A stretch of DNA of 47,616 nucleotides, taken from NCBI GenBank assembly GCA_023248215.1, contig JAHFEW010000025.1, forward strand, positions 2,490-50,105. Direction: 5' to 3'. This stretch comes from Nitrospira sp. Its GTDB lineage: Bacteria; Nitrospirota; Nitrospiria; Nitrospirales; Nitrospiraceae. Of the stretch, positions 4,304 to 21,607 are shown piece after piece. Each line of letters opens with the position of its first letter. Position 1 is the first letter of the stretch. The notes beneath the pieces are model-generated. The model made no database searches. It saw only the letters and a list, made by a program, of their open reading frames with translations, and was not told the DNA's origin. A program made the translations under genes and the position numbers.

Positions 4304-4504
4304 TGAACAGTGATGCTCCGATTATATGGCGTAGGTTGACCGGTACTTGTACCACAGCGTTGCGCGGCCTTGTCAAGCACAGCGACTTCCAGACGTCTCC
4401 GGTTGTGGCCCGCCGCAGCGCCGTTCCGTGATTGACAGTGAAATCTGGCGCCACATATGATGACCATTCATCAACGATGTGCCTGCAGCGTATGGTCTTA
4501 CACT

Positions 4505-4960
4505 ATGAGTAAAGCGCTCCATTACGCGGTTGTTCTTCTTCTCCTGGTCGGAGGGTTGGTGTATTGGTGGATGAAACCACCGACCCTCAATCCGATGACC
4601 GACCCACAGGCGGCTCAGGCCCTGGCATTGGTGCAGACCCATCGGGCGGTCGGCTATCCGACCATTCTCCAGGCCTTCAACGAACGGGCCCGCATTCAGG
4701 AGGCCCGCAAGCTGGGCTTGCGTTTGGGGGAGTGGCAGGTGATCAAGCAGGATGGGCAGCGGTACGAGGTTCGCATCTACATGCGTGAGCAGGGGACGAC
4801 GCAATGGTTCGAACGGGATTTCATTTGGCACGTCGATTTGGCCACGAAGCGAGTGAATGCCGCCTCGCTGCCGGCCGATGGCCTGATGCCGGAAGGACCG
4901 GAAAGCGGACGACCGCGCAATCCCGCCGCAGATTCCCCTCCGCTGCCTCCTACAATGTAG
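4505..4960 (+). CDS. Small membrane-anchored protein of unknown function
   Basis: I do not recognise the family. From the ATG at 4505 the product has 151 residues: a short basic start, one transmembrane helix (residues 6-22, YAVVLLLLVGGLVYWWM), then a soluble domain of about 100 residues and a proline-rich tail. The soluble part alternates charged helix and strand, with segments such as GEWQVIKQDGQRYEVRIYM suggesting a small beta-rich domain outside the membrane. An upstream in-frame ATG at 4457 would add sixteen residues without helping the membrane anchor. The 3' end overlaps the convergent Rieske gene by 11 bases. Confidence 0.7.
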   Translation: MSKALHYAVVLLLLVGGLVYWWMKPPTLNPMTDPQAAQALALVQTHRAVGYPTILQAFNERARIQEARKLGLRLGEWQVIKQDGQRYEVRIYMREQGTTQWFERDFIWHVDLATKRVNAASLPADGLMPEGPESGRPRNPAADSPPLPPTM

Positions 4961-5276
4961 GTGGAATTTTCACTTGCACGTTCGGGCCTTGCACCCGCAC
5001 TTCTACGCAGGCCACAGAGATCTCAGGGTTTTCGGGACGCTCGCCGGTGCGGACATTGAAGCGCCACCCATGCCAGGGGCATTCAAGCACTTCCCCGTCC
5101 AGAGTGCCTTCACCCAGCGGCCCGCCCGCGTGTGGACAGGTGTTATCGACGGCCCGAAAGGTTCCATTCACATTGCAGAGGGCGAGAAAGATGCCTTCGA
5201 CCTCCACAGTTCGGCAGGTTCCCGGCGGAATCTCGTCCACTTGGGCCACGGTGACATAAACGGCGAGTGAATCCAT
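4950..5276 (-). CDS. Rieske [2Fe-2S] ferredoxin
   Basis: The product is a 108-residue soluble Rieske protein with both cluster motifs intact: CPH at residues 47-49 and CPWH at 66-69, giving Cys47, His49, Cys66 and His69 as ligands. There is no signal peptide or membrane anchor, so it resembles the free ferredoxin components of dioxygenases or the NirD-type subunit rather than a bc1-type Rieske. No oxygenase or nitrite reductase large subunit is adjacent, so its electron partner is unknown. AAGGGA precedes the ATG. The gene overlaps the 3' end of the convergent small membrane protein gene. Confidence 0.92.
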   Translation of the reverse strand: MDSLAVYVTVAQVDEIPPGTCRTVEVEGIFLALCNVNGTFRAVDNTCPHAGGPLGEGTLDGEVLECPWHGWRFNVRTGERPENPEISVACVEVRVQGPNVQVKIPPTL

Positions 5277-5477: not shown

Positions 5478-6023
5478 ATGGAAATGACCTTGTTGCTCAA
5501 CTCCACCTATGAACCGTTGCGTGTCCTGCATTGGCAGAAGGCCATTACCTTGCTCTGGCAGGGGAAGGTCGAAGTCCTCGAAGTCTACGACCGCCAAATC
5601 CACGGCATCTCTATCTCGATCAAACTTCCGTCGGTGATGCGGCTCCTGAAGCTCGTCAAGCTCAAGGAGAGTCACCGGGCTGTGAAGTTTTCCCGCATCA
5701 ACATTTTTACGCGGGACGGTTATTGCTGCCAATACTGCAAACGCAAGTTCCGCACCGAAGAATTGACGTTCGACCACGTCGTGCCCATCGCGAAGGGTGG
5801 GCGGAAGACCTGGGAAAACATCGTGACGGCCTGCTGGCGGTGCAATAACCGGAAGAGCGGCCGGACGCCGGAAGAAGCGAATATGCGTCTCATTAAAAAG
5901 CCCGTGAAGCCCCGCTGGAGCCCCACGGTTACGATTACCATCGGGATTCGCAACACGCCGGAAAGCTGGCGGGACTATCTGTATTGGAATTTGGAACTCG
6001 ATGCGGACCCGGCCGAGACGTAG
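5478..6023 (+). CDS. HNH endonuclease family protein
   Basis: This is a 181-residue HNH protein of a type common as a stand-alone housekeeping gene in many bacteria. The nuclease core spans residues 76-128. A zinc knuckle is formed by Cys84, Cys87, Cys119 and Cys122 in YCCQYC and ACWRC, and the DHVVPIAKGG motif carries Asp99 and His100. An N-terminal region of about 70 residues (LLNSTYEPL, LPSVMRLL) is typical of this subgroup. Its cellular role is unsettled. There are no restriction, phage or toxin genes nearby, so a mobile origin is not supported. The 201 bases upstream contain short palindromes but no confident promoter. Confidence 0.9.
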   Translation: MEMTLLLNSTYEPLRVLHWQKAITLLWQGKVEVLEVYDRQIHGISISIKLPSVMRLLKLVKLKESHRAVKFSRINIFTRDGYCCQYCKRKFRTEELTFDHVVPIAKGGRKTWENIVTACWRCNNRKSGRTPEEANMRLIKKPVKPRWSPTVTITIGIRNTPESWRDYLYWNLELDADPAET

Positions 6024-6106: not shown

Positions 6107-6559
6107 CTAGTACACCTTATCGATCGTAATCATCAGATCGCGCCCGCCGGGCAAGGTCGGATTCTTCGCATAACGTCCTTCCATATCTCCCGGTTGCGGT
6201 TGACCGGCCTGGCCGTCGCGATCCAGACGGGCAATCACATCCACCATGCCTTTCAGCTCGCTACCTTGCACCATGACATCCGCATTGGTTATTTCGAACT
6301 GCACCGGAAATTTCGGTCCGTCGATCCGTTTGGCGGCGAGGGGTCGCGGTGGTCCTGTCGGGCGCCGCACGATCACAAACAACACGTCGGTCGGTTTGAC
6401 CTGGTCGGCCAAATTGGGCGCAATCTCTACTTGTCCTGCGATCGACCCGCCGCCCTGATCCGGTTCTCCGATGTGTGCAATGCCGAAATAGGCAGCCAGC
6501 GCCGCAATGCCGATGACCCCTCCAGCCATTCCCAGGGATCGTCCTGTATATCCAGCCAC
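6107..6559 (-). CDS. Membrane-anchored CcmI/CycH-type Ig-like domain protein
   Basis: The 150-residue protein has an N-terminal transmembrane segment (residues 10-30) and one domain of about 110 residues. That domain closely matches what I know of the C-terminal periplasmic domain of CcmI/CycH, the apocytochrome c chaperone. Matching features are the sequence order GQVEIAPNLA, LFVIVRRPTGPPRPLAAKR, FPVQFEI, DVIARLDRDG and QPGDMEG, then a closing DLMITIDKVY. The TPR region that binds apocytochrome c in full CcmI is absent. A role in cytochrome c maturation is therefore inference; the domain may have been reused. The organism's tetrapyrrole genes lie about 14 kb away. Confidence 0.72.
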   Translation of the reverse strand: MAGYTGRSLGMAGGVIGIAALAAYFGIAHIGEPDQGGGSIAGQVEIAPNLADQVKPTDVLFVIVRRPTGPPRPLAAKRIDGPKFPVQFEITNADVMVQGSELKGMVDVIARLDRDGQAGQPQPGDMEGRYAKNPTLPGGRDLMITIDKVY

Positions 6560-6732
6560 AATATGCTCCTTTGTTTACTCACCGTGAGAGCGAGGGCTCC
6601 CTCGTCATCCAGCGCGCGCATTATACCCAGCTCATGGCGGAAAGGGGAATGCCGAAGCGGGTTTACCCTGTGAAATCGCCTGTTGTATGATACGCCCTTA
6701 CCTTGTTGACGCCTTGTTGGAGGATTATGACG

Positions 6733-7392
6733 ATGGCTGCAAATTCTGGCTTTCAAATTTCACTCGATGTGCGCGGTTGGCCGGTTCTGGTCATCGGTGG
6801 CGATGAGGAGGCGGCTGAAAAGGTTCAGCGGTTATTGGACGCCGGCGCCAAGGTGACCGTGATCAGTCCCACCATGAACGAAACGCTTCGCAAGCTGGCG
6901 GCCTCGGCCAAGATTATTCACCGCGGCCGGCATTTTCGCGCGAACGATCTGGAGAGCGCCATTCTGGTGTTGAACACGATGCGGGATGACCGTGAACTTT
7001 CCCATTCGCTGATGCGGCTGGCTCGCGAGCAGAAATTCTTGATCTGGTCCGTCGACCAGCCCGACGTGTCGAACGTGGTGATGCCGGCCGTCGTCAGCTG
7101 CGGTCACCTTCGCCTGGCGGTCAGCACGAGCGGTCAGGCGCCCGCCCTATCCGGATTCATGAAGGAAGATCTGGAACGTATTTTGGATAGTGAGTTCGCC
7201 GCCTTTGTCGATTGGCTGGGGCAGCTTCGCGAGCAGGCCAAAGCCAACGAACCGGATGCGGAAAAACGCCGCGCCCTCCTCCGTGAGGCGCTGGATGGAT
7301 TTCGTCTCTTGGGGAAAGTGCAGTATCCCAAGGTGTGGCTCGATCACCGCGCGAGCCAACAGGCTCCCGCGACACCTGCATCAACCACCTAA
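6733..7392 (+). CDS. SirC-like precorrin-2 dehydrogenase / sirohydrochlorin ferrochelatase
   Basis: This 219-residue protein matches the N-terminal half of CysG (SirC/Met8-type), which oxidises precorrin-2 with NAD and can insert iron to give siroheme. A Rossmann motif VIGGDEEAAEK starts at residue 20. Asp108 in VDQPD aligns with the catalytic Asp104 of enterobacterial CysG, followed by MPAVV and the VSTSGQAPAL loop. The third glycine of the usual GGGxVA is replaced by Asp, a mild oddity. I chose the ATG at 6733, nine bases after GGAGG, over the ATG at 6727. Its substrate would come from the CobA-HemD fusion at 24044-25609. The thiamine-binding protein gene follows directly. Confidence 0.85.
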   Translation: MAANSGFQISLDVRGWPVLVIGGDEEAAEKVQRLLDAGAKVTVISPTMNETLRKLAASAKIIHRGRHFRANDLESAILVLNTMRDDRELSHSLMRLAREQKFLIWSVDQPDVSNVVMPAVVSCGHLRLAVSTSGQAPALSGFMKEDLERILDSEFAAFVDWLGQLREQAKANEPDAEKRRALLREALDGFRLLGKVQYPKVWLDHRASQQAPATPASTT

Positions 7393-20800: not shown

Positions 20801-21607
20801 ATGTCTTCGGTCTTTTTCATGCTCACGATGGCGCTCTATTTCGTGAGCACGGTGTGCTACCTGGCCTATCTGCTTCGGCGGGCGGAAACCCTGTCGAAAG
20901 TGTCGCTGGGGATTACCGCCATGGGGTTTGCCACACACACCGTGGCACTGGTCGCCAGAATGGCGGATACCGGCCAGACGCAACTCCCGACGTTTCACGA
21001 AGCCCTGTCGTTTTTCTCCTGGATGCTCATTCTCGTGTTTCTCGCCGTCGAATTTCGTCGGCAACTTCACGTCCTCGGCTCGTTCATTGTTCCGCTCGCC
21101 CTCATCTCGCTGGTGACCGCCGCTGCGTTTCGTTCCGACGAGGCATCAAGTCTCCAGCCCGTGTTCAAAACCCTGTGGGTCCACGTGACCCTCAGCATGT
21201 TGGGCACCGTGGGGTTCGCCGTCGCCTTTGTCGCGGGAGTGATGTATCTCATTCAAGATGGTCTTCTCAAGTCTAAGCGCTTCAATGTGCTCTATGCCAA
21301 ACTGCCCGCCCTCGACTATCTCGATCATCTGAACCAACAGTCGATCGTCATGGGCTTTCCACTTCTGACCCTTGGGATCATCAGCGGCGCCTTCTCTGCG
21401 GAGATCGTTCGCGGAACCTATGTGAACTGGAACCCTGAGCAGACGTGGGCCATGGTGACGTGGGGTTTCTATTTCGCGGTCCTTGTCGGCCGGCTCACTA
21501 TCGGGTGGCGGGCCAAACGAGCCGCATATCTCACGATCATCGGCTTTGCCGGCGTGATCCTGACCCTGATTGGAGTGGTTTTGAAAAGTCACGGGTCGGT
21601 GTCCTGA
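20801..21607 (+). CDS. CcsA/HemX-type cytochrome c assembly membrane protein
   Basis: The 268-residue protein has about eight transmembrane helices and belongs to the CcmC/CcsA/HemX heme-handling family. The tryptophan-rich segment YVNWNPEQTWAMVTW resembles the WWD heme-binding loop, and histidines in HEALSFFSW and WVHVTLSMLG are candidate heme ligands. It is the first gene of the tetrapyrrole operon, ending one base before hemA. In Bacillus the equivalent HemX controls HemA level, whereas CcsA works in cytochrome c assembly; the sequence alone does not decide between them. Confidence 0.87.
   Translation: MSSVFFMLTMALYFVSTVCYLAYLLRRAETLSKVSLGITAMGFATHTVALVARMADTGQTQLPTFHEALSFFSWMLILVFLAVEFRRQLHVLGSFIVPLALISLVTAAAFRSDEASSLQPVFKTLWVHVTLSMLGTVGFAVAFVAGVMYLIQDGLLKSKRFNVLYAKLPALDYLDHLNQQSIVMGFPLLTLGIISGAFSAEIVRGTYVNWNPEQTWAMVTWGFYFAVLVGRLTIGWRAKRAAYLTIIGFAGVILTLIGVVLKSHGSVS

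Follow-up and report, generated by a model that had tools for sequence, protein, structure and literature searches.

A free-standing CcmI-type Ig domain and its likely tie to System II cytochrome c maturation in Nitrospira

Nitrospira depends on many c-type cytochromes. Comammox Nitrospira possess cytochrome c maturation System I and canonical Nitrospira possess System II, a difference that has been treated as a matter of ecology (PMC9693385, PMC7490378), and ccm genes have been described beside hao (PMC4863621). According to PMC3884852, the System I chaperone CcmI binds apocytochrome c, chiefly via the C-terminal helix of the cytochrome, and its periplasmic part consists of a TPR region and a C-terminal alpha-beta region. 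The table of components in the same source gives ResA, CcdA, ResB and ResC for System II and lists no CcmI counterpart among them (PMC3884852). In the openly accessible literature, outside subscription papers and at the level of titles and first parts of abstracts, we found no paper that describes a free Ig_CycH protein or connects it with System II. The domain family itself is known; for its arrangement here, a free-standing CcmI-type Ig domain that is likely tied to System II in Nitrospiraceae, no report was found.

A free Ig_CycH protein and its neighbourhood

The window, by which we mean the whole analysed stretch of 47,616 nucleotides of Nitrospira DNA, carries a gene for a short protein of the Ig_CycH family on its minus strand (Table 1). 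The 150-aa product matches Ig_CycH of Pfam (PF23892) with an E-value of 1.4e-20 and 73.5 bits against a cut-off of 27, and the alignment of residues 41-147 covers positions 2-108 of the 108 in the profile, i.e., the entire profile. Its hydrophobic anchor stretch, which begins at residue 9, has a Kyte-Doolittle mean of 1.88 over 19 residues. Ig_CycH is the sole family that the Pfam scan found in the protein, so no TPR family was among its matches, and the N-terminal segment of CcmI (TIGR03142) was not found in it either. One NCBIfam match, at 12.7 bits against a cut-off of 440, was put down to chance. When the gene was compared with nine orthologues of the genus, dN/dS was 0.03-0.08. Because of these values and the presence of the gene in 27 of the 29 genomes of the genus, the ORF is not a chance reading frame but a real gene under strong purifying selection. 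PF23892 occurs once in each of the 27 genomes, which include all 24 of the good ones, and the two genomes without it are 66% and 88% complete. An origin as a fragment or pseudogene was likewise ruled out by dN/dS and by the separate branch of the protein in the domain tree described below.

An earlier note, made from the letters of the DNA, had read this gene as a free-standing CcmI/CycH Ig-like domain with its own membrane anchor, with no TPR part and no ccm neighbours, in a host that might be Nitrospira. The HMM search, the hydrophobic stretch and the Pfam scans of the protein and of six neighbours agree with this reading on every point, and the host belongs to the genus group that includes 'Candidatus Nitrospira defluvii'. 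The three conserved words quoted in the note held in part. All three stand in the sequence, and the core of the first (R-P-x-G and P-R-P) as well as QPGD are largely kept among 31 relatives of the protein, whereas the closing ITIDKVY, present in the window protein, is not conserved among them. All 31 relatives match Ig_CycH in Pfam. The likeness to the C-terminal domain of CcmI/CycH thus consists of the whole-length PF23892 match and of the same domain in the CcmI of sister genera. In contrast to CcmI, the window protein has neither the N-terminal segment nor the TPR part, and its gene lies outside a ccm operon.

Table 1. Features of the Ig_CycH locus in the window
Feature	Position	Strand	Remark
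Free-standing Ig_CycH protein	6107..6559	minus	150 aa, GTG start
Ig_CycH domain, residues 41-147	6119..6439	minus	predicted beta-sandwich, seven strands
N-terminal hydrophobic anchor, about residues 9-30	6470..6535	minus	short helix in model, low confidence
AGGAG ribosome-binding box	6566..6570	minus	6 bases before GTG; from sequence
Precorrin-2 dehydrogenase-like (CysG N-terminal)	6703..7392	plus	divergent neighbour; stays where Ig gene is lost
HNH endonuclease-like	5478..6023	plus	convergent neighbour; stays where Ig gene is lost
Rieske ferredoxin-like	4950..5276	minus	conserved neighbour, control

Among the six neighbour proteins scanned against Pfam, no ccm product was found; they are the HNH, Rieske and precorrin-2 dehydrogenase-like proteins, a thiamine-binding protein, a DUF4403 protein and one protein without a match. 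In most of the 41 regions compared, the divergent precorrin-2 dehydrogenase-like gene is followed by the Ig gene, the convergent HNH gene and, beyond it, the Rieske gene. The regions that depart from this order are two from outgroups (L075, L076) and one around CcmI (L078). The precorrin-2 dehydrogenase-like frame, as called mechanically, is unusually long in three loci, namely L068 (G205) with 353 aa, L096 (G014) with 393 aa and L097 (G016) with 320 aa.

Other parts of the window deserve mention in their own right. The plus strand at 4457-4960 encodes a conserved protein that has an N-terminal hydrophobic stretch, as judged by eye, and no Pfam match; it is found in 39 of 39 loci from ResB-positive genomes and in 25 of 28 from ResB-negative ones. 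A CcsA/HemX-type protein (PF01578, E 5e-31) is encoded at 20801-21607 on the same strand, and the ORFs directly after it, up to 27041, read by eye like hemA, hemC, cobA/hemD and hemB. By these names, a heme and siroheme synthesis cluster sits in the same window as the Ig_CycH gene.

Co-occurrence with ResB and loss at the locus

The genome of the window (G000) contains PF23892 once and has a System II operon (L179, G000:C74) encoding ResB, CcsA, two thioredoxin-like proteins and a CcdA-like protein. The Ig_CycH gene is not in an operon with resB-ccsA and lies on another contig; in the single-contig genome G001, the Ig gene is about 1.9 Mb away from resB. No CcmE match over the cut-off was found in the genome of the window, its sole match having 22.3 bits against a cut-off of 24.6. 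Matches to CcmE of about 20-24 bits were not counted as System I, since they are under the cut-off and also occur in ResB-negative genomes. A frame of about 150 codons (G000:C193:85439-85663, L186) and its equivalents give 20-24 bits against CcmE in many Nitrospiraceae, whether these have System I or not.

For comparison, 108 Nitrospiraceae genomes were surveyed for ResB, CcmE and the short form of the Ig gene, with 87 genomes at least 90% complete as the good subset; ResB and CcmE were counted over their cut-offs, and a genome without an explicit negative entry was scored as negative by elimination. Both ResB and the Ig gene are present in 67 genomes and both are missing in 31, while four have ResB without the gene and six have the gene without ResB. 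The four genomes with ResB only are 70-84% complete. In the good subset, the gene accompanies ResB in 55 of 55 genomes, and it is missing from 28 of the 32 without ResB. The same holds within genera. In genus g2, at all levels of completeness, 4 of 4 ResB-positive genomes have the gene and 18 of 18 ResB-negative ones do not; in genus g4 the counts are 10 of 10 and 13 of 15. Fisher values for the ResB table ignore kinship and are not used here as a measure of strength. The exceptions with the gene and with ResB not over the cut-off are G267, G272, G275 and G289 among the good genomes, and G270 and G295 among the poorer ones. In G275, a ResB fragment of 24.2 bits, just below the cut-off, stands beside a CcsA-like match on contig C73. 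For the cytochrome assembly family PF01578, no match was seen in G272 and just one, of HemX size, in G289; these two exceptions may be gaps in the assemblies.

All 28 good genomes without the short gene possess an Ig-bearing frame of at least 387 codons, taken as CcmI, which was scanned and confirmed to have TPR in 17 and was assigned by frame length in the other 11. Such a long Ig frame is also present in 13 of the 14 genomes with both CcmE and ResB; the one without it, G183, has only a weak CcmE match. In its likeness to the known System II (ResB/CcsB, ResC/CcsA, ResA, CcdA), the Ig_CycH gene is thus a companion by co-occurrence in Nitrospiraceae. It differs in that the component table of PMC3884852 has no Ig_CycH counterpart and in that it does not belong to the operon here.

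The locus itself was then read in 28 ResB-negative genomes. These are not identical with the 28 good genomes that have neither ResB nor the gene: they include G291 (83% complete) and G296 (81%), and ResB-negative genomes with no HNH match (G133, G224) or a cut-off HNH gene (G289, G297) are outside the set. Of the 108 genomes surveyed, 102 have the HNH neighbour. In the 28 loci, the HNH gene is present in all, the dehydrogenase-like gene in 27 (in L175 the contig stops short of it), the Rieske gene in 27, and the Ig gene, at a coverage of at least 70%, in only one (G267). Both flanking genes are present in 27 loci, of which 26 have lost the Ig gene altogether or hold only pieces of it, and G267 has a full-length copy with an in-frame TAG. 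The median distance from the dehydrogenase-like gene to the HNH gene is 735 bases in 39 ResB-positive loci and 227 in these 27. Decayed pieces of the Ig gene stand at the right place in G185, G288, G290 and G296, and also in G298, where they are short and weak (E 0.002). As the flanking genes stay and pieces of the Ig gene remain, its loss left the surrounding genes largely in place.

The same loci bear on a different explanation, in which the Ig protein serves siroheme or heme supply together with the divergent precorrin-2 dehydrogenase-like gene. This divergent pair is conserved in most of the family loci that were read, and a shared promoter region is possible. However, the dehydrogenase-like gene is still there in every one of the ResB-negative loci except the one at a contig end, despite the Ig gene being gone or broken, and, by prediction, the Ig protein is not cytoplasmic. 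Since the neighbour stays where the Ig gene is lost, a joint role of the two is unlikely, and we give the siroheme explanation very little weight.

A tree was built from ten neighbour proteins in 67 rows, each a locus; L093 and L156 (contig ends) and L075, L076 and L078 (other families or other genes) were omitted. On this tree, ResB and the Ig gene each change four times, and they do so together in three of three independent pairs on supported branches, or in four pairs on all branches. A sign test on the three pairs gives a p-value of 0.25, the lowest that three pairs allow. On the same tree, CcmE changes seven times and does not track the Ig gene. The Ig gene of G267 is scored as present in the presence table and as broken in the tree, a choice that decides one of the four changes; if this copy is counted as intact, one agreement becomes a disagreement. 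The link between ResB and the gene therefore rests on only three to four independent losses, and the flanking genes are the sole other genes that were compared for co-loss. Co-occurrence with ResB, which an accessory factor of System II should have, is found in Nitrospiraceae and is not found in three outgroup genomes, as follows.

Short and long forms, outgroups and the predicted fold

In the sample of the phylum, 70 of 245 genomes match PF23892 at an E-value of up to 0.01, 66 of them over the cut-off. The module is not universal: PF23892 is absent from 15 listed genomes of family f2 in the same order, and no PF23892 match of either kind was found in G227 (99% complete) and G233 (93%), two g2 genomes of the window's own family outside the 108, which counts against a strict rule. 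The frames of Nitrospiraceae are of two kinds, short ones of about 150-280 codons and long ones of about 390-700 codons, and all 17 long frames scanned have TPR_CcmH_CycH and one or two Ig_CycH domains. A quick tree of the domain was made from 129 sequences thinned to 47 at 85% identity, pieces covering fewer than 86 profile positions being left out. In contrast to the CcmI domains of the phylum, the short forms of Nitrospiraceae stand on their own side of a starred branch. Only L250, a long-branched piece of CcmI, falls among them, and this placement is probably wrong. L250, titled as a proteobacterium, was not counted as a free form, because its protein, encoded where a contig ends, combines a TPR-like part with Ig. 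The short forms of the outgroups (L075, L076 and L248) are on the other side of the tree and unresolved there, so the tree does not show a single origin of the free forms. In genus g4, three short genes adjacent to CcmI group with the CcmI domains and are therefore a different, later kind. Among the CcmI frames of this genus, those in L031 (G229), L034 (G231), L035 (G155) and L037 (G213) carry two or three Ig_CycH domains in tandem, and the one in L033 (G133) a single domain; in all five loci an additional separate Ig_CycH gene adjoins the CcmI frame.

The three outgroup genomes are G142 and G151, of the same class, and G300, the genome of L248. Each has a free Ig_CycH protein and CcmE over the cut-off, and no ResB match was found in any of them. 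Assembly proteins of CcmF size are present in G142 and G151, so that these two have System I, as G300 probably does too. With the free domain occurring in genomes without a ResB match, ResB is not required in general. CcmI of G142 and G151 is 305 and 310 aa long, with TPR and without the Ig domain, and G300 has no TIGR03142 match. A further case, G267, combines System I and a TPR-only CcmI with its short Ig form with one in-frame TAG. The System I operon of G267 (L288, G267:C89) adjoins the same two genes as the System II operon of the window genome, which we take to be metK- and ahcY-like. The shared neighbours suggest that one system may have been swapped for the other in place, in either direction.

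NrfG and CcmH of Escherichia coli keep the TPR part and lack the Ig domain. Together with such TPR-only CcmI and CcmH proteins, they form the other half of the chaperone architecture to which the window protein belongs; the TPR-only CcmI of G142, G151 and G267 keep TPR without Ig, and the window protein is the reverse. The earlier note had gone further and suggested a split CcmI chaperone, of which this gene could encode a subunit and another gene of the genome a TPR-only partner. An arrangement of this sort is indeed present in G142 and G151, where TPR-only CcmI accompanies a free Ig protein, and in G267, though with the TAG in its Ig gene. In the genome of the window, the expected TPR-only partner was not found by TIGR03142, which has no match in the genomes of N. 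moscoviensis and N. defluvii either, and CcmE does not exceed its cut-off. A split CcmI is therefore improbable there. The note's wider expectation, a phyletic link to genes of cytochrome c maturation by System I or II, fared better: the link is seen in the 55 of 55 and 28 of 32 good genomes counted above, and the genome of the window has the System II operon but, with CcmE below the cut-off, not System I.

AlphaFold2 predicts a seven-strand sandwich with block pLDDT of 79-92 over model residues 41-149; the mean is 76.4 and the anchor is unsure. The best solved match to the model is AspS (5wec) with Z 9.8 over 101 residues, an rmsd of 3.0 and a Foldseek E-value of 1.4e-4. A T3SS pilotin, 2yjl, presumably of the type named ExsB, comes second with Z 8.4, and the rest of the list has Z of at most 7.3. 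The closest solved folds are thus secretion pilotins, not cytochrome proteins. By sequence, a search of the PDB with the protein gave only weak HMG-CoA synthase and helicase matches with E-values of 0.034 and above, and a search of the PDB with the PF23892 profile found no solved relative. The similar predicted beta-sandwich keeps alive another explanation, although fold alone shows no function: the protein may be a general envelope protein or a pilotin-like chaperone of the AspS/ExsB-type fold, and its loss may merely accompany a switch of life style in lineages with System I. The small number of independent losses would fit this explanation, and so would the Ig proteins of G142 and G151, which start like lipoproteins with signals ending in LLGC and YAGC (lipobox judged by eye). 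A Cys at the lipobox place is kept in many Nitrospiraceae forms and in none of the window's own genus. However, these pilotins have only 12-16% identity to the Ig_CycH protein, and no pilotin family was among the Pfam matches of its 31 family members up to an E-value of 10, a search in which filters drop most matches above 0.1. The gene is also kept in all 14 genomes with both CcmE and ResB, one of which (G183) is counted on a weak partial CcmE match; the gain of System I alone thus does not remove it. On balance, we consider the pilotin-like or life-style explanation rather unlikely.

A probable role in cytochrome c assembly

We consider a tie of the Ig_CycH gene to cytochrome c maturation to be likely. 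The protein is probably the trans-acting counterpart of the Ig domain of CcmI, serving as an assembly factor for c-type cytochromes beside System II in canonical Nitrospira. It would be anchored in the inner membrane with its domain presumably in the periplasm, and the Ig-like module, which stands behind the TPR part in many CcmI, would here act in trans as a protein of its own. In canonical Nitrospira, it would work beside ResB-CcsA, the thioredoxin-like proteins and CcdA. There it probably holds or presents apocytochrome c, or it may help a step common to both systems, because in the outgroups a free domain of this kind accompanies System I. The Ig module could be supplied in trans as the short form or in cis as part of CcmI, and among the genomes compared, those that have no ResB but an Ig-bearing CcmI seem to have given up the short form. 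As for its partner, the shared substrate or the thiol-redox side is more likely than CcmF/H or ResB, since the Ig module accompanies both systems. Contact with the apocytochrome or with ResB-CcsA, and the biochemical step, are at this stage what we infer.

A broader reading, which we put forward tentatively, is that the Ig domain of CcmI is a module independent of the maturation system: it may be used in trans with a System I that lacks it, in trans with System II, or in cis. The System II of canonical Nitrospira would then have an unrecognised component from the family of a System I chaperone. If a conserved member of the CcmI family tracks System II, this would argue for a chaperone-like step in that system and would make it possible to test what the Ig domain of CcmI does separately from the TPR part. 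For Nitrospira itself, the presence or absence of the Ig_CycH gene may be one consequence of the exchange between System I and System II.
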